In this document: positions 14,869 through 26,493 of the stretch, one piece after another
Layout: each line of letters opens with the position of its first letter
Numbering within the stretch: the first letter of the stretch is position 1
Assembly (NCBI GenBank): GCA_013141375.1
Contig: JABFRC010000310.1
Location: 1-44,614 of the forward strand
Length of the DNA: 44,614 bases
Source of the DNA: Methylococcaceae bacterium
GTDB lineage: Bacteria > Pseudomonadota > Gammaproteobacteria > Methylococcales > Methylomonadaceae
Direction of reading: 5' to 3'
The notes under the pieces: generated by a model
Database searches by the model: none
The model's input: only the letters and a program-made list of their open reading frames with translations
Told to the model about the DNA's origin: nothing
Translations under genes and position numbers: made by a program

Positions 14869-14898
14869 TTGACACATTAAGACAACCGGTCGTATTAT
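14869..14898 (+). promoter_or_regulatory. Sigma-70 promoter of tetR (leaderless)
   Basis: TTGACA (14869-14874) and TATTAT (14893-14898) are separated by 18 nt. Transcription should begin about 7 nt after the -10 box, which falls on the tetR ATG at 14905. No ribosome-binding site is present, so the mRNA is probably leaderless. The TetR palindrome lies between the -35 and -10 boxes. Confidence 0.75.
14878..14897. promoter_or_regulatory. TetR operator candidate, site 1 (autoregulation)
   Basis: TAAGACAACCGGTCGTATTA is an imperfect palindrome (8 of 10 base pairs symmetric) centred on ACCGGT. It occupies the spacer and -10 box of the tetR promoter, so bound repressor would block RNA polymerase. 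A nearly identical sequence lies upstream of mtoX (17573-17590). Confidence 0.65.
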
Positions 14899-14904
14899 TT
14901 AGCC

Positions 14905-15501
14905 ATGACTAGAGAAGCAAATAAACTTATTAATCGTGAGAAACTGTTAAGCCAAGGCGTGGCACTACTTACCGAACAAGGCTATCACGGCACCGGACTT
15001 AAAGAAATTCTGGATGCGGTAAAAATTCCCAAAGGTTCTTTTTACAATTACTTTGGCAGCAAAGAAAATTTCGGCGCCGAAGTTATTCAACATTATATCG
15101 AGCCATTTATTGTGCTATTGGCCGGACATATACAAAAATCTGAAGACGATGCACTGGGCGCACTGCAAAATTATTTTAATGAGCTAATCCGTGAATTGGA
15201 AAAAGCCGATTTTAAAGGCGGTTGCCTGCTGGGTAATTTAATGGGGGAAATCGGTGATACCAGCGAAATTTGCCAGAAATCACTGCAAACGGCGGTGGAT
15301 CGTTATCGGGATTTGCTCCAGCTGGGCTTGGAAAAATCCCAACAACAAGGCACGGTAAGAACCGACAAATCTGCTCAAGCCATGGCCGATTTATTAGTCA
15401 ACACCTGGCAGGGCGCGTTATTGCGGATGAAGATCGAGAAATCATCAGTGCCACTTAAGCAATGCCGGGATGATTTATTGGGGGATTTTTTTAAAGCATA
15501 A
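14905..15501 (+). CDS. TetR-family regulator (NemR/AcuR type)
   Basis: The 198-residue repressor has an N-terminal helix-turn-helix with GYHGTGLKEILDAVKIPKGSFYNYF (key parts G-KEILDAV and PKGSFYNYF; about 26-50). This form is typical of NemR/AcuR-like regulators that respond to electrophiles, acrylate or reactive small molecules. Cys107 in KGGCLLGNL aligns by motif with the redox-sensing Cys of NemR. It is probably translated from a leaderless mRNA. A DUF4242 gene follows 60 nt later, and the pair ends at a strong terminator (15951-15977). The operator placement predicts self-repression and control of mtoX. Confidence 0.92.
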   Translation: MTREANKLINREKLLSQGVALLTEQGYHGTGLKEILDAVKIPKGSFYNYFGSKENFGAEVIQHYIEPFIVLLAGHIQKSEDDALGALQNYFNELIRELEKADFKGGCLLGNLMGEIGDTSEICQKSLQTAVDRYRDLLQLGLEKSQQQGTVRTDKSAQAMADLLVNTWQGALLRMKIEKSSVPLKQCRDDLLGDFFKA

Positions 15502-15561
15502 TTATTTATTGTGCTTTACAAAGATGACCATCATTTATTTTTAATCAATAGGAGTAAAGCA

Positions 15562-15837
15562 ATGCCAAAATACATTATTGAACGTGACATCCCAGGCGCC
15601 GGCGCATTAACTGCACAAGACCTGCAAGGCATTTCGCAAAAATCTTGCGGCGTCCTGAGTAATCTGGGCACTAAAATACAATGGCTGGAAAGCTATGTTA
15701 CCGACGACAAAGTCTATTGCGTGTACATCGCTCCGGATGAAGCCACAGTTAAAGCCCATGCAGAACAAGGTGGGTTTCCAGCCAACCGTATTTCTCAGGT
15801 TAGAACTATCATTGACCCGACGACTGCTGAAGGCTAA
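15562..15837 (+). CDS. DUF4242 (SCO4226-like) small protein
   Basis: This 91-residue ferredoxin-fold-like protein starts at ATG 15562 with AGGAG 7 nt upstream; the longer frame to 15511 lacks such a site. The pattern MPKYIIERDIPGAG...WLESYVTDDKVYCVYIAPDE is the DUF4242 signature. The Streptomyces member SCO4226 binds nickel, but metal binding here is not shown by the sequence. It is cotranscribed with the tetR gene, so it is likely to be induced by the same signal. Confidence 0.85.
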   Translation: MPKYIIERDIPGAGALTAQDLQGISQKSCGVLSNLGTKIQWLESYVTDDKVYCVYIAPDEATVKAHAEQGGFPANRISQVRTIIDPTTAEG

Positions 15838-15950
15838 CTCGACTAGACATTAAAATATCAAGGTTTTGCTTCTTCTCCCGTCGGGAAATAGCGGAGATAA
15901 GAGGATCAAAACCAACGCGTTTTAGCTTATTTTTAAACGCCCCTCACACA

Positions 15951-15977
15951 TCCCTCTCCATCCGGAGAGGGATTTTT
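15951..15977 (+). terminator. Rho-independent terminator after tetR-DUF4242
   Basis: TCCCTCTCC pairs with GGAGAGGGA around a 4-nt ATCC loop and is followed by TTTTT. It separates the tetR unit from metY. A weaker imperfect hairpin framed by GGTTTTG/CAAAACC lies just upstream (about 15862-15916). Confidence 0.88.
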
Positions 15978-16036
15978 GCGCAGATTTATTAGCATTGCGT
16001 AATTGAAAATACCTTATCCAGACCGGAGCAAACTCC

Positions 16037-17308
16037 ATGAAACTTGAAACCATAGCCGTACACGGTGGTTATAGCCCCGACCCGACGACCAAAGCAGTCG
16101 CGGTACCTATCTATCAAACCACCTCTTATGCCTTTGACGACACCCAGCATGGCGCCGATTTGTTCGACCTGAAAGTGGCCGGCAATATCTACACCCGCAT
16201 CATGAACCCGACCACCGACGTACTGGAAAAGCGCGTAACTGAGTTGGAAGGCGGACTGGCCGGTTTGGCATTGGCATCCGGCATGTCCGCAATTACTTAT
16301 GCGATCATGACCATCGCCGAAGCAGGCGACAACATCGTTTCCGCCGCCACACTATACGGCGGCACCTACAATTTGTTTGCCCACACCCTGCCCCAATACG
16401 GCATCAATGTGCGCTTTGCCGATTATCGCGATCCTAAAGCATTTGAGACTTTAATCGACGATAAAACTAAGGCCATTTTTTGCGAGTCGGTCGGCAATCC
16501 ATTGGGCAACATTACCGACTTTGAAGTTTTGGCCGAAATCGCGCATCGCCACGGTGTGCCGCTGATTGTCGACAACACCGTGCCGTCGCCGTATTTGTGC
16601 CGTCCTATCGAACATGGTGCCGACATTGTCGTGCACGCTCTGACTAAATATCTGGGCGGTCACGGCAACAGCATCGGCGGCATCATTGTCGATAGCGGCA
16701 AATTTCCTTGGGCCGAACACAAAGCACGCTTCCGTCGCCTGAACGAACCCGATGTCTCCTACCACGGAGTGGTGTATACCGAAGCCCTGGGGCCGGCAGC
16801 TTATATTGGCCGGGCACGCGTGGTGCCGCTGCGCAATACCGGTGCCTGTATCTCGCCGTTTAATTCATTTTTGATCCTGCAAGGTATTGAAACGCTGGCC
16901 CTGCGCATGGACAGAATTTGCGAAAACACGCTAAAAGTCGCGCAATTTCTGCAAGGCCACAGCAAAGTCGCCTGGGTGAATTACGCTGGCTTGGAAAGTC
17001 ATCCGGACAAAGCCCTAGTCGATAAATACATGGGTGGCCGCGCCTCCGGCATTCTTACCTTCGGCTTAAAAGACGGCCGTAAAGCTGGCGAGAATTTTCA
17101 GGATGCATTAAAACTGTTCACTCGATTGGTCAATATCGGCGATGCCAAATCGCTGGCTTGTCATCCGGCATCGACCACGCATCGTCAATTAGCACCGGCT
17201 GAGCTGGCCAAGGCCGGCGTCACTGAAGACATGGTACGTTTGTCGATGGGTATCGAGCATATCGACGACATTCTGGAAGATTTAGAGCAGGCACTGGCGG
17301 CATCCTGA
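16037..17308 (+). CDS. metY: O-acetylhomoserine sulfhydrylase / aminocarboxypropyltransferase
   Basis: This PLP enzyme makes homocysteine from O-acetylhomoserine and sulfide; members of the family can also use methanethiol to form methionine directly. The protein has 423 residues. Lys204 in VHALTKYLGGHG is the PLP lysine. ASGMSAITYAI, GGTYNLF and VDNTVPSPYLCRP are conserved Cys/Met-metabolism PLP motifs. GGAG lies 8 nt before the ATG. Its position between a TetR unit and the methanethiol oxidase gene suggests a second route for consuming methanethiol; this context argument is inference. Confidence 0.93.
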   Translation: MKLETIAVHGGYSPDPTTKAVAVPIYQTTSYAFDDTQHGADLFDLKVAGNIYTRIMNPTTDVLEKRVTELEGGLAGLALASGMSAITYAIMTIAEAGDNIVSAATLYGGTYNLFAHTLPQYGINVRFADYRDPKAFETLIDDKTKAIFCESVGNPLGNITDFEVLAEIAHRHGVPLIVDNTVPSPYLCRPIEHGADIVVHALTKYLGGHGNSIGGIIVDSGKFPWAEHKARFRRLNEPDVSYHGVVYTEALGPAAYIGRARVVPLRNTGACISPFNSFLILQGIETLALRMDRICENTLKVAQFLQGHSKVAWVNYAGLESHPDKALVDKYMGGRASGILTFGLKDGRKAGENFQDALKLFTRLVNIGDAKSLACHPASTTHRQLAPAELAKAGVTEDMVRLSMGIEHIDDILEDLEQALAAS

Positions 17309-17387
17309 GAATATAGCCGTCCGCCATCTAGCCTTTCGTGGTGAGCCTGTCGAACCATGAACAACTTGATGGCGATGATCTAATAAA

Positions 17388-17517
17388 GTAACTATTCACC
17401 ACAGAGGACACGAAGATCACGAAGAAACTGTTAGTGTTGGAATAGAGCTGTTTCAGTTCTTACTCAACGCGTATTACTATCTTCGCGTCCTCTGTGACCT
17501 TCGCGGTGAATAGTTAC
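17388..17517. repeat. 130-bp inverted-repeat (MITE-like) element
   Basis: The left end GTAACTATTCACC, followed by an ACAGAGGACACGAAG segment, is repeated inverted at the right end with an extra 11-12 nt (GCGAAGGTC) in between. The ends are perfect for 13 nt. There is no coding potential. It looks like a small non-autonomous palindromic element inserted between metY and mtoX. Confidence 0.65.
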
Positions 17518-17533
17518 GAATAAACAACATAGC

Positions 17534-17559
17534 ACCCGAGGTTAAATTTCGGGTTTTTT
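17534..17559 (+). terminator. Rho-independent terminator upstream of the mtoX promoter
   Basis: ACCCGA pairs with TCGGGT around a 9-nt loop, followed by a T-run. It insulates mtoX from metY read-through, so mtoX needs its own promoter, where the TetR-type palindrome begins 14 nt later. Confidence 0.7.
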
Positions 17560-17572
17560 AGGCCAACCAAAA

Positions 17573-17590
17573 AAGACGACCGGTCATATG
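17573..17590. promoter_or_regulatory. TetR operator candidate, site 2 (upstream of mtoX)
   Basis: AAGACGACCGGTCATATG matches site 1 at all but three of 18 positions. As in tetR, a -10-like hexamer (TATGTT, 17587-17592) begins two bases after the GGTC arm. The expected -35 position is poor, so the promoter may need an activator or be weak. Confidence 0.6.
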
Positions 17591-17592
17591 TT

Positions 17593-17802: not shown

Positions 17803-19185
17803 ATGAAAACTAAGTTCAACAAATCTCGGCTTATCAGCGCCGCTGTTACCGCGTCAGTGGTCGCATTGGCAGGACTAGCGATAACGCCAGTGCAAGCCGA
17901 TGAAACCTGCATGTCGCCGTATATGGCTAAAATTGTCGGCCAGGAAGATTTTGTTTATATCTGGACCCTGGGCGTGGAAGGGCTTGGCGATGAGCAAGAC
18001 AAACTGGTCACTGTCGATGTAAACCCGAAGTCGCCCAAGTACGGCAAAGTCATCAACAGCGTATCTGTCGGTGGCCGAAACGAAGCCCATCACTCCGGCT
18101 TTACCGATGATCGTCAGTATTTATGGGCGGGCGCCTTGGACACCAACAAGCTGTTTGTTTTTGACGTCCATACCGATCCAGCCAAGCCCAAGCTGGTTAA
18201 AACCATCACTGATTTTGTCGCCAAAAGCGGCGGCGTTGTTGGCCCACATACCACTTATGCGTTGCCTGGACGCATGATCATGACCGGCCTGTCCAACAAC
18301 AAAGACCACGGCGGCCGCACCGCTATCGTTGAATACACCAACGACGGCGAGTACATCGCCACGCATTGGACGCCCACCGATGACAATCTGCAAGGCGCCA
18401 TCAAAACCGGTAAATACGCCGATGGCTACGGCTATGATTTGCGCGTATTGCCCCGGCGCAATCTTATGTTGACCTCGTCGTTTACCGGCTGGTCAAACTA
18501 CATGATGGATTTCGGCAAAATGCTGCAAGATCCGGAAGCCATGAAGCGTTTCGGCAACACCGTGGTGCAGTGGGACTTGCACACCAAACAGCCGAAAAAA
18601 GTCTTCGATGTACCCGGCGCACCGCTGGAAATCCGTTGTGCCTGGGGACCTAACCACAACTATTGTTTCACCAGCACCGCGCTGACCTCCAAAATCTGGC
18701 TGATTTACGAGGATAAAGACGGCGCGTGGCAAGCTAAAGAAGTGGCCAATATTGGTGAACCTTCCAAAATCCCGCTGCCGGTGGATATTTCCATTTCCAG
18801 CGACGACGGCACGCTCTGGGTCAACACCTTTATGGATGGCAAAACCCGCGCATTCGACATTACCGATCCATTCAAACCCAAACAGGTGTTTGAGCAAAAA
18901 ATCGGCGCGCAAGTCAACATGGTATCGTCCAGCTGGGACGGCAAACGTCTTTATTACACCTCATCCCTGCTGGCCAACTGGGATAAAAAAGGTGCTGATA
19001 ACGAGCAGTTTATAAAAGCCTACAACTGGGACGGCAAGCAATTGCAGCAACAATTTGCGATTGATTTCAACAAGGAAAAACTCGGCAGGGCGCATCAAAT
19101 GGTGTTTGGGGCTTATTCGCTGTATAGCGCTAACAAGCCAACGACACTGGATACTCTGGTGACGCAACTGGATTTGAAAAAATAG
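17803..19185 (+). CDS. mtoX: Methanethiol oxidase (SBP56/selenium-binding family), periplasmic
   Basis: MtoX is a copper enzyme that converts methanethiol to formaldehyde, H2S and H2O2. The protein has 460 residues, near the usual SBP56 length. A Sec signal peptide (residues 1-32, ending TPVQA) places it in the periplasm, as in methylotroph MtoX. The mature start DETCMSPYMAKI and later motifs (HHSGFTDDRQYLWAGALD, APLEIRCAWGPNHNYCF) are hallmark SBP56 sequences. AGGAAGG precedes the ATG. A TetR-type palindrome lies upstream, metY is the preceding gene, and the SCO-MauG fusion expected for its maturation is 5.4 kb downstream. In known methylotrophs mtoX adjoins SCO1 and mauG genes. Confidence 0.93.
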   Translation: MKTKFNKSRLISAAVTASVVALAGLAITPVQADETCMSPYMAKIVGQEDFVYIWTLGVEGLGDEQDKLVTVDVNPKSPKYGKVINSVSVGGRNEAHHSGFTDDRQYLWAGALDTNKLFVFDVHTDPAKPKLVKTITDFVAKSGGVVGPHTTYALPGRMIMTGLSNNKDHGGRTAIVEYTNDGEYIATHWTPTDDNLQGAIKTGKYADGYGYDLRVLPRRNLMLTSSFTGWSNYMMDFGKMLQDPEAMKRFGNTVVQWDLHTKQPKKVFDVPGAPLEIRCAWGPNHNYCFTSTALTSKIWLIYEDKDGAWQAKEVANIGEPSKIPLPVDISISSDDGTLWVNTFMDGKTRAFDITDPFKPKQVFEQKIGAQVNMVSSSWDGKRLYYTSSLLANWDKKGADNEQFIKAYNWDGKQLQQQFAIDFNKEKLGRAHQMVFGAYSLYSANKPTTLDTLVTQLDLKK

Positions 19186-19458: not shown

Positions 19459-20049
19459 TTATTTATGGGGCACATAACGATAATGCCCCGTTATTTTGTA
19501 AGAAAAAATCATGTCCTCCAGTTTTGGACCGGCACCAATGTTGTGAACGATAAGTGGATTTCCAGTGCTGCGGGAAATTTTATCCGTGACAATGCCAATA
19601 TGCGGCAGATTTCCCGGCAACATCCAGGTCACGATATCCCCAGGCGCATAATCCTGGCCTTGATCGGTCACGGGGAATACTTTGCCATACCGAGTGAAAA
19701 AAACCTGTAGATTCGGGACCCGACGATGATCAATATTCCGGTCAGTCGACTTTAAGCCCCAGAGCCGCTTTGAAGGATACAAGCGAAAGTTTTTGACCAT
19801 ATCCTCGTGAACTAAAACCTGAAGATCGACCCCCAGCTTGCGATACGAGCGAATGATGACATCGGTACACACCCCAACATTTGCGGGGACATCACCGTTT
19901 GGATAGGCGATTGAAAAATACGACCCATCATAACGAACGTTTTGGTGGGTCTGGTCCAGTGCCGCCAAAACGATGGCCTGTTCAAACCCATCACTGAGTG
20001 CGTCTTGAGAAAAAACAATCGTAGCGATGAATAGAAATCTTCTTATCAT
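19459..20049 (-). CDS. DUF1287 protein, Cys/His hydrolase-like, exported
   Basis: The 196-residue protein has a signal peptide (ending about DALS, residue 19). The DUF1287 signature is clear: DQTHQNVRYDGSYFSI, YPNGDVPANVGVCTDVIIRSYR and HEDM. Cys61 (GVCTDV), His150 (LPHIGIV) and His169 (IVHN) are placed as in papain-like or NlpC/P60-type cell-wall amidases; catalysis is inferred, not shown. It starts 15 nt after the tai4 stop and is the last gene of a three-gene set with tae4 and tai4, so a peptidoglycan role fits. Confidence 0.85.
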   Translation of the reverse strand: MIRRFLFIATIVFSQDALSDGFEQAIVLAALDQTHQNVRYDGSYFSIAYPNGDVPANVGVCTDVIIRSYRKLGVDLQVLVHEDMVKNFRLYPSKRLWGLKSTDRNIDHRRVPNLQVFFTRYGKVFPVTDQGQDYAPGDIVTWMLPGNLPHIGIVTDKISRSTGNPLIVHNIGAGPKLEDMIFSYKITGHYRYVPHK

Positions 20050-20064
20050 TGCGTGAAAACTCTA

Positions 20065-20493
20065 TCAGCGGCGAAGAGTGCTTTTTAATCGCATGGCAAA
20101 CTCCCTTGAATTGATAAATTCAACACAGCTTTGCAAGCGCATGGGTATGCCGTTTTGAGTGATGCCAGGAGCAGGCGCGGATTTGGCGAGCTGTGCCAAT
20201 GCAGTATAAGACTCAGCCGACAAACTACCATTTTCCACTAAACCACCGGCCCAGGCATCGGCTTCGGTTGCAATCGGCGTTCCCGCGTACCGTTCCATAA
20301 TGCAGGCCGCAAGCACATAATTGCGCGCTTGCGCCATTTCACTGGACGTCGGTTTTTCGGCGGCAATCGCCGTGGTGGATAAAAACAAAATGGCTGCCGT
20401 TGGCAATAGCATGAAGCGAGCAATTGCTTTAAACCATTTCGCAGTAAGGCGAAACTCTTGAGGTTTGATAGCCCAAAGCTTTATAGCGACCAT
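20065..20493 (-). CDS. tai4: Tai4-family amidase immunity protein
   Basis: The 142-residue protein carries a long, basic N-region and a hydrophobic signal (about 26-44, ending TAIAA), so it is exported to the periplasm, where Tai proteins neutralise Tae amidases. The mature part (ARNYVLAACIMERYAGTP, ADAWAGGLVENGS, LQSCVEF) has the two Cys residues and Trp region typical of Tai4. The ATG overlaps the tae4 stop by 13 nt with AGGAA 7 nt upstream, implying coupled translation, as expected for toxin and immunity. Confidence 0.85.
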   Translation of the reverse strand: MVAIKLWAIKPQEFRLTAKWFKAIARFMLLPTAAILFLSTTAIAAEKPTSSEMAQARNYVLAACIMERYAGTPIATEADAWAGGLVENGSLSAESYTALAQLAKSAPAPGITQNGIPMRLQSCVEFINSREFAMRLKSTLRR

Positions 20494-21008
20494 AGCGTCA
20501 TTCCTATCGTGGTGGCTTCAATCTGCGGTGTTGCCGAATTATCTTTTAAGTTTCGATAATCATCATGGGGTTCTCTGAAGGCGCTGCCATCCCAAAGCGC
20601 GACATGGCCGCTGGCATCACTCCAGCCGGTAACGTCGAATGACACAATGCCTTGTTGCCCCGCAAAGGCTTTGTCGAAATCTTTTGTGACTTTGACAGGG
20701 GTCACGCCTAACGCCGATGCCAGGTAAGTTTTCATATCCCGCACACGGAATATGTAAGGCATTCCGTCAGCACCGATCATGGTCTCAATTTTAAGGGACT
20801 TGGTCAGCTTTGCCGAAATCGGCATGTTGCCGTAATTGAGGGCTCGGGACATGCGGGCGGCACAGGTATTGCCGTTTACCCCAAACCCCGGCACGTCAAT
20901 GTTCTTAGCCAGACTGCCACCGATATACGTATGCAGATCGCGCAGTGTCGGGTAACTCGTGTGGTCAGGGAATGCTCCCCACATCATTATGAAGCTAGGC
21001 TTGGCCAT
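20481..21008 (-). CDS. tae4: Type VI secretion amidase effector Tae4
   Basis: Tae4 is a peptidoglycan DL-endopeptidase delivered into rival cells by type VI secretion. The 175-residue protein starts at ATG 21008 (AAGGA upstream) and has no signal peptide, as expected for a secreted-by-needle toxin. Cys49 in NTCAARMSRALNYG and His135 in GHVALWDG are the catalytic Cys and His motifs; Asp140 sits in the acidic position. The cognate tai4 follows and overlaps. No T6SS structural genes are in the window, so delivery depends on genes elsewhere. Direct composite repeats on both sides suggest acquisition as a module. Confidence 0.9.
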   Translation of the reverse strand: MAKPSFIMMWGAFPDHTSYPTLRDLHTYIGGSLAKNIDVPGFGVNGNTCAARMSRALNYGNMPISAKLTKSLKIETMIGADGMPYIFRVRDMKTYLASALGVTPVKVTKDFDKAFAGQQGIVSFDVTGWSDASGHVALWDGSAFREPHDDYRNLKDNSATPQIEATTIGMTLWSL

Positions 21009-21079
21009 ATTTTTTATCCTTTTGGTCAGTAGTTTGTAGATCAGTTCGATTAGGGTGTTCCCACGCAGCATATGGTAAA

Positions 21080-21292
21080 GAGAAATTGGGTAGCTCGTAT
21101 GCAGCGCAGCGAAATACGGGGATCAGCGCACAATTGTAAACAAGCAATATCCTAATAACCATTGCTATTGACCCCCGGGTAATCCCAGGGGGTTGTGATA
21201 TTGAGTGTCTGGAAAGTCAACGTGTTTTATAAGTACAGGTCATTCTGTTCGGATACACTGAGCCCGGATTCCGCAAAGCTCCATCCAGTCTA
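21080..21292. repeat. Composite intergenic repeat, copy B
   Basis: This block contains AGAGAAATTGGGTAGCTCG, a GCAGCGCAGCGAAATACGGGGAT unit (21101-21123; 21 of 23 bases as in copy A), a GC hairpin ACCCCCGGG/CCCAGGGGGT (21171-21193), and AGCCCGGATTCCGCAAAGC...CTAC (21261-21292). It is in the same orientation as copy A, so the two flank the tae4-tai4-DUF1287 module as direct repeats. Confidence 0.6.
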
Positions 21293-21359
21293 CTTGCTGA
21301 CCCCAGTTATTCAAGCTTCAGTATTCAGGAACGTTACAATCCAAAATAGGCAAAAAAAA

Positions 21360-21441
21360 GTAGGGTGGGCACGCCTTTTTGCCCACCATTTCACGTCATT
21401 GCTTTATTTCCGCGTGGGCACAAACAGCGTGCCCACCCTAC
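21360..21441. repeat. 82-bp palindromic repeat element
   Basis: GTAGGGTGGGCACGC (21360-21374) is perfectly repeated inverted at 21427-21441. The interior holds more GTGGGCA/GCCCAC pairing. A second hairpin, GTAGCCTCAAGG with CCTTGGGGCTAC, follows at 21461-21491. Nothing codes between tae4 and the BrnT gene apart from these repeats. Confidence 0.7.
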
Positions 21442-21583
21442 CGCGCTTCAGCAAGGTCGAGTAGCCTCAAGGGGCAGTTCCTTGGGGCTACCCTACCGGG
21501 CTAACCCCCAGCTACTTGTTTGGAATGCCGACAATCGCAGTTGATTGATGACAATGGGCATACGGCATAGTAAGCTTTATTCC

Positions 21584-21865
21584 ATGAAAGTGATTAATTG
21601 GAACGCTGAGAAAAATCAGATATTAATGAATGAAAGAGGAATTTCGTTTGAAGATATTCTTTTTTCTATTCGGAATGGAGATTTGCTTGATGACATATGT
21701 CATCCCAATGTCGATAAGTACCCAAATCAAAGAGTACTTATGGTTGATGTTGACGGCTACGTTTTTCTGGTTCCTTATATCGAAACTACAGAAGAGATTT
21801 TTCTCAAAACCATAATCCCCAGTCGCAAAGCGACGAAAAAATATTTGCGAGGCAGCGATGACTAA
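21584..21865 (+). CDS. brnT: BrnT-family toxin
   Basis: This 93-residue RelE-fold ribonuclease-type toxin starts at ATG 21584 (MKVINWNAEKN). NWNAEKNQILMNERGISFEDILFSI and the terminal IIPSRKATKKYL are the BrnT hallmarks, including the basic C-terminus. The downstream antitoxin gene overlaps by 8 nt. BrnT cleaves RNA to halt growth in characterised systems. It lies in the repeat-rich island beside the Tae4 module, and its AT-rich codon use differs from the neighbouring housekeeping genes, suggesting transfer. Confidence 0.88.
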   Translation: MKVINWNAEKNQILMNERGISFEDILFSIRNGDLLDDICHPNVDKYPNQRVLMVDVDGYVFLVPYIETTEEIFLKTIIPSRKATKKYLRGSDD

Positions 21866-22163
21866 AATCAAATTAAATCAAGAAGAACAAGAAATTTTAG
21901 ATGCTTTCGATGCAGATGAATTTGAATCCGTTATAACAGACGACCGTAGATCTTATTTAATGCAAACCGCTGACGAAACATTTAAAAAAGATAAGCGTAT
22001 CAATATCAGAATTTCGAGCAGAGATTTGACGGCGCTACAACGAAGAGCACTAGAAGAAGGCTTACCTTATCAAACGTTAGTCGCCAGCATCTTACATAAA
22101 TATGTCTCTGGAGGCTTACAAGACATTGCAGCAAATAAAGCGTTACACGGAATAACTCGTTAG
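21858..22163 (+). CDS. CopG-type ribbon-helix-helix antitoxin partner of BrnT
   Basis: This 101-residue antitoxin has a disordered acidic N-terminal half (DAFDADEFESVITDD) that would wrap the toxin. The ribbon-helix-helix part is RINIRISSRDLTALQRRALEEGLPYQTLVASILHKY (key parts RINIRIS and ALEEGLPYQT). This fits the CopG_antitoxin family more than classic BrnA. The start codon overlaps brnT by 8 nt, so the two form a coupled, self-repressing operon. Confidence 0.88.
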   Translation: MTKIKLNQEEQEILDAFDADEFESVITDDRRSYLMQTADETFKKDKRINIRISSRDLTALQRRALEEGLPYQTLVASILHKYVSGGLQDIAANKALHGITR

Positions 22164-22212
22164 CTGAAGGTTGGGCACCTAAGCATAACTGGGGTTAGAA
22201 TAGCCCGCGTAG

Positions 22213-22238
22213 GTCCGATTAGTGCAGCATAATCGGAC
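22213..22238. repeat. REP-like palindrome at the RAYT 3' end
   Basis: GTCCGATTA is inverted as TAATCGGAC around an 8-nt loop and overlaps the stop codon of the transposase remnant. RAYT transposases act on such palindromes, so this could be a native substrate end. Confidence 0.55.
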
Positions 22239-22904
22239 GCATGTATTCATCGCCACCTACTACGGAATTGATGTCACCGCACCCATCGGCTTGATAAATA
22301 CCTTTTGCGACATTGCGATGAAAGGTTGAATAAGGCCAATCCTCGACCCGCTTGACGTATCCATGCTTCAAGGGATTTACATGAACATAATCGATGTGGC
22401 GTTGGTAGTCGACGTCGTTGCAGATAAAATGCTCCCAGTAATGCCGTTGCCATATGCCTCGTTCCCCGGCTTGTTTTCGTACATCAGACCGCCGTTCAGT
22501 TTGGGGTAACGCACGTGAAAATCCACTTTTAATCAAGCGCCATCGCTTGCTGAAATCGCAATCGCCGGATGGTAAAGTTCACCGCTCGGCAACTCGATTG
22601 CTGTTCCTGACGCAATTCTACCTCCTCCATCCATGGAGTCGTGCTCCCTGCGTCGCCTACCAACAGTAGGCGCATTAGGCGAATGCGCCTACTGTTGGCG
22701 CCCTACTTCCTGCATCCCTGCAGTTGAATGTAAATACTCTGGCAAAACAACCCAGGCGTCGATTTGAAAAGGGTGGCGCTCACGGACTCGCCTCACCGTT
22801 TCGCTCAGTAAACTGATCTCGCGGATGAGCAGGTCGTTGTGATGCCGCTGCAACAGGTTTGCCGTAAAAAACCAAGTTCCTGCTGGTATGAATGCGCGTC
22901 GATA
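22219..22904 (-). pseudogene. REP-associated tyrosine transposase (RAYT), interrupted
   Basis: Two co-linear pieces of one RAYT gene are readable on the minus strand. The N-terminal piece (22904 down to about 22728) begins YRRAFIPAGTWFFTANLLQR and ends WVVLPEYLH; its normal start codon is gone. The C-terminal piece (22578 down to 22219) resumes at TLPSGDCDFSKRWRLIKSGF and includes QRHYWEHF and YVHVNPLKHGYV, holding the catalytic Tyr region. Exactly where WTLP should follow LHxx, about 149 bp of hairpin sequence is inserted, adding a stop. The gene is therefore inactive, though its copies elsewhere could still mobilise its palindromes. Confidence 0.85.
22579..22727. mobile_element. 149-bp hairpin insertion within the RAYT gene
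   Basis: The insertion splits the RAYT frame. It contains a perfect 17-bp stem (CCAACAGTAGGCGCATT, 22660-22676, with 22682-22698) around a 5-nt loop, plus CTCCATCCATGGAG and CTGCATCCCTGCAG palindromes. Related CTACCTCCTGCATCC and CCATGGAG segments occur at about 41083-41150. It resembles a non-autonomous palindromic element. Confidence 0.65.
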
Positions 22905-23146
22905 GTTGGCTGACGCTGCTATTATTTCATACCGCCAAAAGGGTTATCATTAAGGTAGGTTACTTTAAACTAAGCGATGCGCCCCAAAATCTGAACATAA
23001 ATCACCATTGTTCCAACAATAAAAGGACTGCTATTTATCAATTGTTGAAATCCAGCGATAACAAACCAAACCACGTTGTGTGTATAGCCATTTCCGGCAA
23101 TTGCAAGTCAGGGCAATTTTTCCCTACTGAACGGCAGTCGATAATT

Positions 23147-24418
23147 ATGGCACTGGCGTTGATCATGATCATGTTCTGGCCATGCGTACAAGCCGCCCCA
23201 CTTATAACTCAACGGGTTTCTGTTAATTCGAAAGGAATTCAAGGCAATGATGCTAGCAACTATGTAACCTCGGTTTCAGCTACTGGACGTTGGGTGGCTT
23301 TCATGTCAATCGCTTCCAACTTGGTAGCACACGATACCAACGATGTCGCAGACATATTCGTTCGTGATCGCTACACCAAGAAAACTAAACGGGTATCGGT
23401 GAATTCCAAAGGAGTGCAAGCAGATAACGCGAATTACTATGCATCGATTTCCGCCAATGGCCGCTGGGTGGCTTTCATGTCCTCTGCTGTTAATCTTGTG
23501 ACAGATGATAATAATGACGCCGAAGATATCTTTGTTCGTGATTGCAAGACCGGCAAAACCGAGCGGATATCGGTTGATTATAAAGGCCTTGAGGCAAACA
23601 ACGGTAGCGATACCCTTTCAATTTCCGCTGATGGTCGCTGGGTAACCTTTTCATCCATGGCCTCCAATCTAGTGGCGGATGATGCAAATGGCACGTGGGA
23701 CATTTTTGTCCACGATCGCAAGACTGGTAAGACCGAGAGGGTGTCGGTGAATTCAGCCGGCGCCGAGGCCAATGGCGGTAGCCACAACCCCTCAATCTCA
23801 TCTGATGGTCGATGGGTAGCATTTGTCTCTGAAGCTTCCAATCTAATAGCGGATGATACAAACAATGTAAATGACGTGTTTGTGTACGACCGTGAAACCG
23901 GCAAAACTAAGAGGTTGTCTATTGACTCACAGGAACAGGAAGCCAATAACAATAGTGATTACACATCCATTTCTGCCGATGGTCGCTGGGTGGCTTTTGA
24001 TTCAAGGGCCTCCAATCTGGTGGCGGATGATACAAATGGCTCATTGGACACTTTTGTTCACGATCTTAAGACGGGTAAAACCGAGCGCGTGTCGGTCGAT
24101 TCGGCAGGCATTGAGGGGAATAGTAGTAGCGGGTATCCCTCAATTTCGGCTTCCGGACGTTGGGTCGCGTTTGGGTCGAATGCCAATCTGGTGTCGAACG
24201 ATATAAATGGTACATTGGATATTTTTATTCATGATCGAGAGAAGGGCACTACCCGACGCGTCTCGGTTAATTCTGGAGGTCATGAAGCTAACGGTCAAAG
24301 CTTGGCTCCAGCGATGTCAGCAAATGGTCGCAGGGTAGCTTTCGAATCAGATGCTTCCAACTTGGTAAAGAAAGACAGTAATGGTTCAACAGACATTTTT
24401 GTTAAAAAGTTGTGGTAA
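23147..24418 (+). CDS. Secreted seven-repeat beta-propeller (TolB/PD40-like) protein
   Basis: The 423-residue form starts at ATG 23147 with a short hydrophobic signal (ending PCVQA). The frame is open to 22892, but that start lies inside the RAYT remnant. The rest is seven tandem repeats of about 57 residues with the consensus ISADGRWVAF-S-ASNLVADD-NG--DIFVHDRKTGKTERVSV-S-G-EAN. The Asp/Asn-rich D-N-x-x-D-IFV loops look like calcium-binding or surface loops. One full seven-bladed propeller would account for the whole chain. Repeats are similar enough at DNA level to suggest recent internal duplication. No partner domains, unlike the protein at 5765. Function unknown. Confidence 0.8.
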   Translation: MALALIMIMFWPCVQAAPLITQRVSVNSKGIQGNDASNYVTSVSATGRWVAFMSIASNLVAHDTNDVADIFVRDRYTKKTKRVSVNSKGVQADNANYYASISANGRWVAFMSSAVNLVTDDNNDAEDIFVRDCKTGKTERISVDYKGLEANNGSDTLSISADGRWVTFSSMASNLVADDANGTWDIFVHDRKTGKTERVSVNSAGAEANGGSHNPSISSDGRWVAFVSEASNLIADDTNNVNDVFVYDRETGKTKRLSIDSQEQEANNNSDYTSISADGRWVAFDSRASNLVADDTNGSLDTFVHDLKTGKTERVSVDSAGIEGNSSSGYPSISASGRWVAFGSNANLVSNDINGTLDIFIHDREKGTTRRVSVNSGGHEANGQSLAPAMSANGRRVAFESDASNLVKKDSNGSTDIFVKKLW

Positions 24419-24456: not shown

Positions 24457-24569
24457 GTTCTCACGCGCTGCGTGTGAACTCATACTGGCCACGCTGCGGT
24501 TTGGTTATCAACGCGGAGCGTTGAAACTGCATTTCCATGCAGCGCATGGGAACGAGAAAACTTGGTAGT
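24457..24569. repeat. Triple-hairpin intergenic repeat upstream of the SCO-MauG gene
   Basis: Three consecutive hairpins occur: GTTCTCACGC/GCGTGTGAAC (24457-24479), CAACGC/GCGTTG (24509-24523) and TTTCCATGC/GCATGGGAA (24532-24552). They run into GAACGAGAAAACTTGGTAGT (24550-24569), which is nearly identical to the start of composite repeat A. It leaves only about 35 nt before the coding start for a promoter. Confidence 0.6.
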
Positions 24570-24603
24570 AGCGTCACTACAAAATAACCACTCAGAGGAC
24601 ACC

Positions 24604-26493
24604 ATGCAACAATCGAATCTGCCAAGTCTGCTTGTTGCGTTATTTCTTGTTTGTGCCAGTTCATTAAGCCCAGCGGACGATACGCAAACACTCGCCCCCG
24701 GCTATGGCGCGCTTGAGTTTACCGCACCCGAGCCAGGCACTTATCAGCTTCCGGCCTTGGGCAATGCCGCCGACGGCAAGTTGCTGAACACACAAAATAA
24801 CGCCATTTCGTTGCATAGCTTGCTGGGCGACAAAGTGGTCTTGCTCAGTTTTATTTACTCCAGCTGCAGCGATGTCAACGGTTGCCCGTTGGCCACGGCA
24901 GTTTTGCACAAAATCAAAACCCGGTTAAAAAAGGAACCCGAATTAGTCGGCAAGCTGCGCATGTTGACGATCAGCTTTAACCCCGAACACGATACACCGA
25001 CAGTGATGCAGCAATACGCCCAGGGCTTTCAGGATCAAGACGTCGACTGGCATTTTTTGACCACCAAATCCGAACAAGACTTACAGCCGCTCCTCGACAG
25101 CTACAAACAAAATATACAGAAGGTTTTTGATGCCGACGGCCATTTTACCGGCACGTTTTCACACCAGTTGCGGGTTTATCTGATTGACCGCAACAAACAG
25201 ATTCGCAATATCTACAGCGTGTCTTTTCTGCATCCGGACACATTGATTAACGATGTAAAAACCCTTCTGCAAACGCCGCTCAAACCAACACAGCCTGAGC
25301 ATTTGCCCACCGCAGCGTTATATTCGGCTGGCGATAACAAAGCCGGATATGAGCAAGACAGTTATCAAACCCATTCCATTGCCCTGGCCGAGCGAAAAGG
25401 CCAGGCAAGCGATTTGACCAGGACAATTCGCAAGCCGCCGTTGGGGCTGGGTGCGGTGCCTGTGCCAGTAGACAATCCCGTCAATAAAGCCAAAATCAGT
25501 TTAGGTAGGCAGCTTTTTTACGACCGCAGGCTGTCGCTTAACAATACTTTTTCTTGTGCGATGTGCCACATCCCGGAACAGGGTTTCACCAACAATGAAA
25601 TGGCTACAGCCGTAGGCATCGAAGGTCGCACCGTTCGGCGCAACAGCCCAACGCTTTACAACATCGCCTATGCCAACGCGCTGTTTCATGACAGCCGCGA
25701 AACCACTCTGGAGCAACAAGTCTGGGCCCCCTTGCTGGCCCATAACGAAATGGGTAATCCATCCATTGGTGTCGTTGTCGAAAAAATAAAGTCTATTGCC
25801 GACTACAAGCAGCAATTTGAACGCGTCTTCGGCAAAGGCCCGAACATGGAAACCATCGGCATGGCCATTGCCAGCTACGAGCGCAGTTTGAATTCAGCCA
25901 ATTCTGCATTCGATCGCTGGTACTTCGGGCATGAGAAAGCTGCGATTGATGAGCAAGCACAACGCGGTTTCCAGCTGTTTACCGGCAAGGCCAACTGCTC
26001 TAGTTGCCATCGCATAGATAAAAACCGGGCCCTGTTTTCAGATGACGACAACCACAATACCGGCATCGGCTATCGCGATGCGATGAACACACCCAGCGCG
26101 TCGCAACCGCTGCAAGTCGCCCCTGGCGTCTATCTCAATGTGGACAGCAGTGTGATTGCCAAAGTATCCGCCGCCAAGGCTAATGATTTGGGGCGGTACG
26201 AAATCACCCAGGATCCGCAGGACCGCTGGAAATACAAAACCCCAAGCCTGCGCAACATCAATCTGACCGCACCTTACATGCACAACGGTAGTCTGACGAC
26301 CTTGCGTGAGGTGGTTGAATTCTACAATCGCGGCGGCGTTGCCAATGAAAACCTTGATTCCCTAATTAAGCCGCTGCAATTGACCGAAGCAGAAATCGAT
26401 GATTTGACTGCTTTTTTACAAACATTGACCGGTGATAACGTGCAAGAGCTGGTTGCTGATGCATTTGCAGCGCCGGTGGGGGACAGTCGCTAA
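24604..26493 (+). CDS. SCO1/SenC-MauG di-haem fusion (probable MtoX maturation factor)
   Basis: The 629-residue exported protein joins two normally separate enzymes. A signal peptide (ending about LSPA) is followed by an SCO-type thioredoxin-fold domain (about 50-225). This has Cys88 and Cys94 in CSDVNGCPLA, and His187 in FSHQLRVYLIDR, for copper binding; the Cys pair is C-x5-C rather than the classic C-x3-C. The second half (about 280-610) is a MauG/cytochrome-c-peroxidase domain with haem motifs CAMCH (318-322) and CSSCH (465-469). ATG 24604 has AGAGGA upstream. In known mtoX clusters, separate SCO1 and mauG genes accompany the oxidase, so this fusion probably matures the MtoX encoded 5.4 kb upstream. 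Confidence 0.9.
   Translation: MQQSNLPSLLVALFLVCASSLSPADDTQTLAPGYGALEFTAPEPGTYQLPALGNAADGKLLNTQNNAISLHSLLGDKVVLLSFIYSSCSDVNGCPLATAVLHKIKTRLKKEPELVGKLRMLTISFNPEHDTPTVMQQYAQGFQDQDVDWHFLTTKSEQDLQPLLDSYKQNIQKVFDADGHFTGTFSHQLRVYLIDRNKQIRNIYSVSFLHPDTLINDVKTLLQTPLKPTQPEHLPTAALYSAGDNKAGYEQDSYQTHSIALAERKGQASDLTRTIRKPPLGLGAVPVPVDNPVNKAKISLGRQLFYDRRLSLNNTFSCAMCHIPEQGFTNNEMATAVGIEGRTVRRNSPTLYNIAYANALFHDSRETTLEQQVWAPLLAHNEMGNPSIGVVVEKIKSIADYKQQFERVFGKGPNMETIGMAIASYERSLNSANSAFDRWYFGHEKAAIDEQAQRGFQLFTGKANCSSCHRIDKNRALFSDDDNHNTGIGYRDAMNTPSASQPLQVAPGVYLNVDSSVIAKVSAAKANDLGRYEITQDPQDRWKYKTPSLRNINLTAPYMHNGSLTTLREVVEFYNRGGVANENLDSLIKPLQLTEAEIDDLTAFLQTLTGDNVQELVADAFAAPVGDSR

Follow-up and report, generated by a model that had tools for sequence, protein, structure and literature searches.

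We analysed a 44,614-nucleotide (nt) stretch of the genome of a Methylococcaceae bacterium (contig JABFRC010000310.1, hereafter the window) in which four genes, all on the plus strand, form a cluster: tetR, encoding a TetR-family regulator, a gene of the SCO4226 family, metY, and mtoX, encoding a methanethiol oxidase (MTO). Comparison of this cluster with its relatives makes it very probable that the tetR product is an AcuR-like, autoregulating repressor that controls its own gene, the SCO4226-like gene and mtoX through one shared operator. The circuit would be an AcuR-type leaderless autoregulated operon, a reading that comparative genomics supports well, with a broader regulon than that of an earlier note on this DNA, which had proposed that one repressor controls itself and mtoX.

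Two palindromes lie at the positions given in the earlier note, operator 1 (TAAGACAACCGGTCGTATTA, 14878-14897) upstream of tetR and operator 2 (AAGACGACCGGTCATATG, 17573-17590) upstream of mtoX, and 15 of their 18 aligned bases are identical, as had been counted. Operator 1 is an inverted repeat whose inner 18 bases agree with the palindromic consensus AAGACGACCGGTCGTCTT at 16 of 18 positions; operator 2 scores 15/18, and neither is assigned a strand. By a consensus scan, tetR has a plus-strand promoter with 11 of 12 consensus matches and a spacer of 18, consisting of the -35 box TTGACA (14869-14874; similar hexamers occur in orthologues) and the -10 box TATTAT (14893-14898), and the ATG follows 6 nt later, which is the geometry of a leaderless gene. 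The palindrome had been placed between these boxes; it does fill the 18-nt spacer after TTGACA, but it also overlaps the -10 box. The same offset had been claimed at mtoX, where a -10-like TATGTT is indeed present (17587-17592), but because there is no good -35 and the consensus scan returned no promoter, the mtoX promoter is a putative one.

A loose form of the motif, allowing 3 mismatches, gave 11 matches in the window alone against 7.0 expected; as 13 of 100 shuffles reached 11, this is not significant, and patterns derived from orthologues were used instead. The specific pattern RAKACRACYRGTCRYAT, built from orthologous tetR promoters, has exactly two matches in the whole 3.9 Mb genome, namely operators 1 and 2, and the reversed pattern has none. 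Across 61 genomes of the window's order the pattern matches in 40, with one to three sites in 39 of them and 22 in the remaining one (G028, discussed below), and the reversed pattern matches twice in all 61. Furthermore, when the regions upstream of mtoX from four species of the window's genus were aligned, positions 17572-17589 formed the longest invariant run (18 bases), the next longest being 10.

Our counts rest on these 61 genomes; loci L046-L083 came from a similarity search that is biased to close relatives and stay outside the counts, and L134-L142 served as controls only. Some TetR match is present in all 61 genomes, and a close one (at least 200 bits) in 47, amounting to 50 copies. 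Scanning from 75 nt upstream to 12 nt inside the gene, we found a best site of at least 14/18 at 45 of the 50 close tetR copies, compared with none of 2000 dinucleotide shuffles. Among the 47 copies scoring at least 13, the gap from operator to ATG is 8 nt in 34, the -10 box is TATTAT in 22, and a Shine-Dalgarno-like tetramer is found in none; among the genes amenable to scoring, such a tetramer precedes SCO4226 in 38 of 39 cases and mtoX in 24 of 34. The geometry and the missing Shine-Dalgarno-like site both fit the leaderless tetR that the earlier note had described, but the assignment draws on these features and not on a mapped transcription start. One second tetR copy, in G030 (L125:5393-5440), has two operators side by side in one promoter.

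The two genes are also linked. mtoX was found at an E value of 1e-40 in 51 of the 61 genomes, and 42 genomes hold both tetR and mtoX, which are linked in 40 (36 within loci and four members of the window's genus by contig positions) and unlinked in G011 and G058. Relatives usually have the order tetR, SCO4226-like gene, mtoX, in which SCO4226 is often preceded by a second operator; 33 of the 40 linked genomes have the SCO4226-like gene in this intermediate position. In 24 of the 40 the tetR-mtoX interval contains a second site of at least 14/18, compared with 2 of 3550 intervals after shuffling, and the 14 second sites that precede SCO4226 start 31-63 nt upstream of it in 13 cases and 310 nt upstream in one. 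mtoX is directly preceded by the operator in each of the 4 species from the window's genus, and so is the linked mtoX of G039, G051 and G054 (one genus), of G060 and of G040. Even in G011, whose mtoX and nearer tetR copy lie about 250 kb apart, the ATG of mtoX is preceded by a 15/18 site that ends 19 nt upstream. No operator site accompanies the second mtoX copy in G014 or the unlinked one in G058, and of nine genomes with mtoX and no close tetR, seven lack any site of at least 14/18 in the 4-6 kb around mtoX. The conservation of the palindromes beside orthologous tetR and mtoX genes, which the earlier note had proposed as its check, is borne out by these counts. One internal stop was flagged in the mtoX matches of G023, G041, G047, G052, G054, G055 and G058, of which only that of G054 (G054:C1:545192-546148) is also short.

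Several observations weigh against a single repressor for these genes. Five tetR copies have no site of at least 14/18 at the expected place (those of G040 and G046 score 13, those of G004, G026 and the G011 copy at L043 lower), and no second site of that quality was found in 16 of the 40 linked genomes, where read-through from the tetR promoter could serve. The second site of G029, counted among the 24, is a poor 14/18 match that may be chance, and the promoter boxes of mtoX in the window are unrecognisable by consensus scan. At the E value used, mtoX is missing from 5 of the 47 genomes with a close tetR, and 9 of the 14 genomes lacking a close tetR do carry mtoX, so that neither gene needs the other. 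Moreover, two genomes without a close tetR nevertheless have a site, G005 about 265 nt before SCO4226 (14/18) and G037 about 105 nt before mtoX (15/18). Lastly, the available excerpt of one paper reports a Halomonas AcuR as an activator (PMC13104084), which makes the sign of control here uncertain. The G005 and G037 sites themselves (L134:1895-1912 and L137:2067-2084) may reflect a repressor that was lost or left unassembled, or another TetR protein.

Within the window's genus the cluster appears to have been rearranged. metY (16037-17308, plus strand; O-acetylhomoserine sulfhydrylase, TIGR01326 at 654 bits, cut-off 495) sits between SCO4226 and mtoX, in the same place in 3/3 congeners, and has no operator site of at least 13/18 in front of it. 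The gap between the SCO4226-like gene and metY contains a weak, 5-pair terminator-like hairpin (15954-15971, plus strand) from a consensus scan that found 9 such elements against 6.0 in shuffles. Directly 5' of operator 2 is an intrinsic-terminator-like hairpin with a 9-pair stem and a T run (17534-17554, plus strand), and the T run is preserved in the three congeners. The operator before the SCO4226-like gene (15521-15538) has decayed to 11/18 in the window and to 12-13/18 in the three congeners, compared with scores of 14-17/18 across many other genera; a 17/18 site has been retained at L063, in another species where metY follows SCO4226. We read this arrangement as one in which mtoX, severed from the operon by metY and the terminator-like hairpins, would have been kept in the circuit by an operator of its own. 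Between metY and operator 2 (17388-17517) there is also a 38-nt imperfect inverted repeat with a 54-nt spacer.

Judged from gene order and operators, the circuit is wider than the earlier note had it, SCO4226 being as constant a partner as mtoX. In four of the five tetR genomes without mtoX (G016, G017, G024 and G026), and in Methylobacter loci, SCO4226 is followed by an apparently secreted protein of about 390 residues that is a distant MtoX relative (hhalign 93.6%, 23% identity over 340 columns) and falls below the SBP56 cut-off; in the fifth, G033, the stretch is too short to read the gene after SCO4226. At L059:7015-8187 and in its relatives, this beta-propeller-like protein of about 390 amino acids (aa) takes the place of mtoX after tetR-SCO4226, and in the Nitrosomonas locus L066 and in G383 that place is held by a tetratricopeptide repeat protein. 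The proposal of one repressor for itself and mtoX is supported by the operator at 45 of 50 tetR copies, at 4/4 mtoX genes of the genus and in six more genomes, but it was too narrow in leaving out SCO4226 and these substitutes.

Of 369 genomes drawn over the class, only 6 have tetR at an E value of at most 1e-45, three of them from the window's order, and close relatives are therefore rare outside it. The sites found outside the order lie before tetR and SCO4226 in G383, before tetR in G258, and in G181 before SCO4226, which there precedes tetR. The G258 locus (L151:2401-4662) has a 14/18 operator at a tetR of 46% identity, and the genes downstream encode a glutathione S-transferase and a short-chain dehydrogenase.

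A paralogous copy of the system extends the regulon further. In one genus (g11), 5 of 6 genomes have a second tetR copy followed by a rhodanese gene, SCO4226 and a sulfide:quinone reductase (SQR)-like gene, whose product, at 250 bits, stays below the cut-off of 525. Sites of 14-15/18 precede the rhodanese gene and sites of 14/18 precede SCO4226 at 5/5 loci, and a site precedes tetR in the four loci whose promoter is covered; the paralogous loci (L127, L148 and L159-L162) have two or three operators each. At the G013 locus DUF1641 and beta-propeller genes come next, and in L127 DUF1641 and an SBP-like gene. SQR-like, rhodanese and DUF1641 genes were rejected as general members of the regulon, as they were near tetR at one place only (L127 = L148) among 88 loci searched; after that single find, the SQR-like/rhodanese arrangement proved to be present throughout g11. 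This paralogous copy ties the family to sulfur chemistry, and MTO has been reported, in the portion of that paper available, to release sulfane sulfur (PMC10936201). Tentatively, and with more doubt than confidence, we propose that this TetR protein founds a sensor group for methanethiol or reactive sulfur (persulfide or sulfane sulfur) in methanotrophs, that its switch is the invariant Cys107 together with Cys123 and a C-terminal Cys, and that one operator language joins methanethiol oxidation, SCO4226-type proteins and the rhodanese and SQR-like genes of the paralogue.

The constancy of SCO4226 also feeds a different reading: the regulator would exist chiefly for the SCO4226-like, metal-binding gene, with mtoX as a passenger among several, and would respond not to sulfur but to a metal such as nickel or copper. 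SCO4226 lies downstream of 42 of the 50 tetR copies versus 40 of 50 for mtoX, is preceded in many genomes by an operator of its own, and stays with tetR in four cases where the examined stretch contains no mtoX (Nitrosomonas L066 and L083, G383 and G181); in addition, excerpts of the literature describe nickel induction of SCO4226 in Streptomyces coelicolor (PMC4186839) and MTO as a copper enzyme (PMC5739008). No SCO4226 lies between tetR and mtoX, however, in 7 of the 40 linked genomes (G039, G040, G044, G050, G051, G054 and G060), and the paralogous regulon adds genes of a sulfur type; we consider this reading unlikely, if worth keeping in mind.

The regulator itself (tetR, 14905-15501, plus strand; 198 aa with Cys107, Cys123 and Cys187) has TetR_N and TetR_C_13 domains by family scan, the N-terminal helix-turn-helix of PF00440 scoring 43.4 bits (cut-off 24), and its nearest named protein matches, at 94-95% identity, come from Methylococcaceae and Methylobacter assemblies. 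Its predicted structure (mean predicted local distance difference test score 92) is closest in fold to Escherichia coli NemR (4yze, 28% identity) and to Rhodobacter sphaeroides 3bru (30% identity), which may be AcuR. AcuR is also the best named model for it and is matched by 38/38 relatives scanned, at a score in the window of 150.1 bits that falls short of the equivalog cut-off of 247 (NF051457). The label "NemR/AcuR-like" given by the earlier note is accordingly right at the family level, on domain models, fold and alignment alike. Its placing of Cys107 in a redox-sensing region is less telling: the residue is invariant in 79/79 distinct orthologues (Cys123 is present in 74 and Lys176 in at least 97%), but E. 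coli NemR and 3bru have the same Cys. The NemR switch is a Cys106-Lys175 pair according to an excerpt of PMC7464077, and since both residues also occur in 3bru, their conservation by itself is no pointer to redox sensing.

These features bear on a second reading that we regard as improbable to about the same degree as a metal signal, namely that the protein is a NemR-like sensor of electrophiles or oxidants (formaldehyde, methylglyoxal, hypochlorous acid) acting through Cys107 and Lys176. The fold and the residue pair are those of NemR, and formaldehyde is a product of MTO (PMC5739008, in the part available), but the pair is not diagnostic given its presence in 3bru. Neither nemA nor gloA is among the cluster genes identified by family scan, the four of the window included, in a search that covered these genes alone; the sole other match to the operator pattern in the genome is at mtoX.

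A true AcuR, sensing acrylate or dimethylsulfoniopropionate (DMSP) and using mtoX because DMSP breakdown also yields methanethiol, is far less credible, despite the best-model match and the shared leaderless, operator-first design. Acrylate binding by Halomonas AcuR requires Tyr82, Lys86, Arg120 and Trp183 (PMC13104084, as excerpted); counted from the shared Cys, without aligning the Halomonas sequence, the corresponding positions are Pro67 in 36/38 relatives, Leu or Gln71 (Lys in 0/38), Gly105 in 36/38 and Trp168 in 37/38, so that of the four only the Trp survives. Little weight can be put on the Lys86 position, as 3bru likewise has Leu at it. With three of the four positions different, acrylate is an unlikely inducer, and a family scan found nothing acuI-like among the four cluster genes, to which the search for acuI was confined. 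Finally, a chance origin of the palindrome at mtoX, or its use by another TetR, might be argued from the frequent loose-pattern matches in the window and the unrecognisable promoter hexamers, but next to the 18-base invariant run in four species, a genome-unique motif and the same motif before mtoX in other genera we give this the least credence of all.

The AcuR system of R. sphaeroides (acuR-acuI-dddL) nevertheless remains the closest published parallel in architecture. As described in the excerpt of PMC3017554, a TetR repressor heads its own target operon and represses itself, the mRNA is leaderless, the -35 and TATTAT -10 boxes are centred 35 and 10 bp before a start that coincides with the ATG, an inverted repeat overlaps the promoter, and the pathway is one of methylated sulfur. 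The window's cluster has this layout, with tetR first, an operator overlapping the promoter, leaderless geometry, and no Shine-Dalgarno-like tetramer in 47/47 copies. The operators differ, however (TAATAGAC-N6-GTCTATTA there, AAKACRACCGGTCRTMTT here), as do the targets (acuI and dddL there, mtoX and SCO4226 here), and the acrylate-binding Arg is replaced by Gly. NemR shares the fold and the Cys/Lys pair, and its tetR-type gene is likewise the first of the operon that it targets, nemRA (PMC3739934, in part); it differs in identity (28%) and in its targets, nemA and gloA. In Ruegeria pomeroyi DSS-3, the mtoX operon (SPOA0268-0272) likewise has SCO1/SenC and mauG genes and its own regulator gene upstream, and its transcription is raised by methanethiol, DMSP and methylmercaptopropionate; the regulator there belongs to the IclR family and not to TetR, and the excerpt names no SCO4226-like gene (PMC5739008). 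S. coelicolor SCO4226 gives its name to the Pfam family of the cluster's second gene and is the nickel-induced member cited above (PMC4186839, in part).

A leaderless self-repressing tetR that heads an operon has thus been published for AcuR, and this architecture is not new. Judged by title and the start of the abstract, among the matches listed in the open-licence literature, there was no TetR repressor of mtoX and no TetR sensor of sulfane sulfur, and the matches listed included no regulator of methanethiol oxidation in methanotrophs.

Taken together, the operator, its conservation, the gene linkage and the leaderless geometry, as they can be read from the DNA, suggest the following scheme, for which we infer binding, repression and derepression. 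The tetR product, presumably dimeric, would bind the palindrome AAKACRACCGGTCRTMTT; at tetR this operator fills the promoter spacer and overlaps the -10 box, so binding would block RNA polymerase. The tetR mRNA would begin at or beside the ATG and be poorly translated, as shown for acuR, which would keep the repressor scarce. In most relatives, the tetR promoter and often the stretch with a second operator would serve tetR, SCO4226 and mtoX, with SCO1/MauG in some; in the window's genus, metY and the terminator-like hairpins would isolate mtoX, which has its own operator copy. The repressor would then be freed, and mtoX derepressed, by an inducer related to methanethiol, whether methanethiol itself or one of its products (sulfane sulfur/persulfide, sulfide, formaldehyde). 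Methanethiol or reactive sulfur is our favoured guess for this inducer, and any role for Cys107 is likewise a guess.

The motif has a separate history in G028, a genome of the same family (genus g26). There AAGACGACYGGTCGTCTT, identical to this repressor's operator, has 286 forward and 283 reverse matches at up to 2 mismatches; the motif is palindromic, and the two sets are largely the same places. These many sites were taken as a candidate large regulon and rejected, as they are a dispersed palindromic repeat: sampled copies (L084-L103) have arms like GAAATTTTTC...GAAAAATTTC, two congeners have only 1-2 matches to AAGACGACYGGTCGTCTT, and of 20 copies sampled from the 22 matches to one variant, 19 lie in intergenic regions, between tandem genes in 9 cases, divergent genes in 5 and convergent genes in 5. 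The repeat is perhaps an operator turned repeat, or a sponge for the repressor. A Y1-transposase (RAYT-type) was rejected as its source, the transposase being present in 7/7 genomes searched, with 2 matches in G028. An orphan site in G060 (C1:1009622; L104:5623-5640) matches the operator at 16/18 about 125 nt before a gene for a 357-aa S-adenosylmethionine methyltransferase, far from tetR; the idea that this is a thiol methyltransferase (MddH) was set aside, as the families found are generic.

The remaining features of the window concern the targets. The SCO4226-like gene (15562-15837, plus strand; 91 aa) belongs to PF14026, a nickel-responsive family, at 99 bits (cut-off 28.5). The mtoX product (17803-19185, plus strand; 460 aa) can be called a methanethiol oxidase by the curated model NF052453, an equivalog that it matches at 788 bits (cut-off 650). 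In its gene, about 205 nt of leader follow the -10-like hexamer, and there is a Shine-Dalgarno-like sequence, GAGGAAGG. Nowhere in the window did an Rfam family reach its gathering score, which leaves this leader without a curated riboswitch to account for it. A SCO1/SenC-MauG fusion (24562-26493, plus strand; PF02630 and PF03150), likely an MtoX maturation protein, lies 5 kb from mtoX and has no operator site of at least 13/18 within 2.5 kb; about 5 kb of other reading frames (19459-24418) separate the two. In several relatives the fusion is directly 3' of mtoX, and it often trails it.

Methanotrophs meet methanethiol and sulfide where methane arises, as is generally known and as the available excerpt of PMC9003020 indicates. 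With an operator at 45 of 50 sampled tetR copies, the question of how they would control methanethiol oxidation is testable in culturable strains. The system offers a candidate methanethiol or sulfur biosensor, and the SCO4226-like family gains a pathway context. The window's genus would, in addition, be an example of an operon partner that was isolated by an intervening gene and bears its own copy of the operator.

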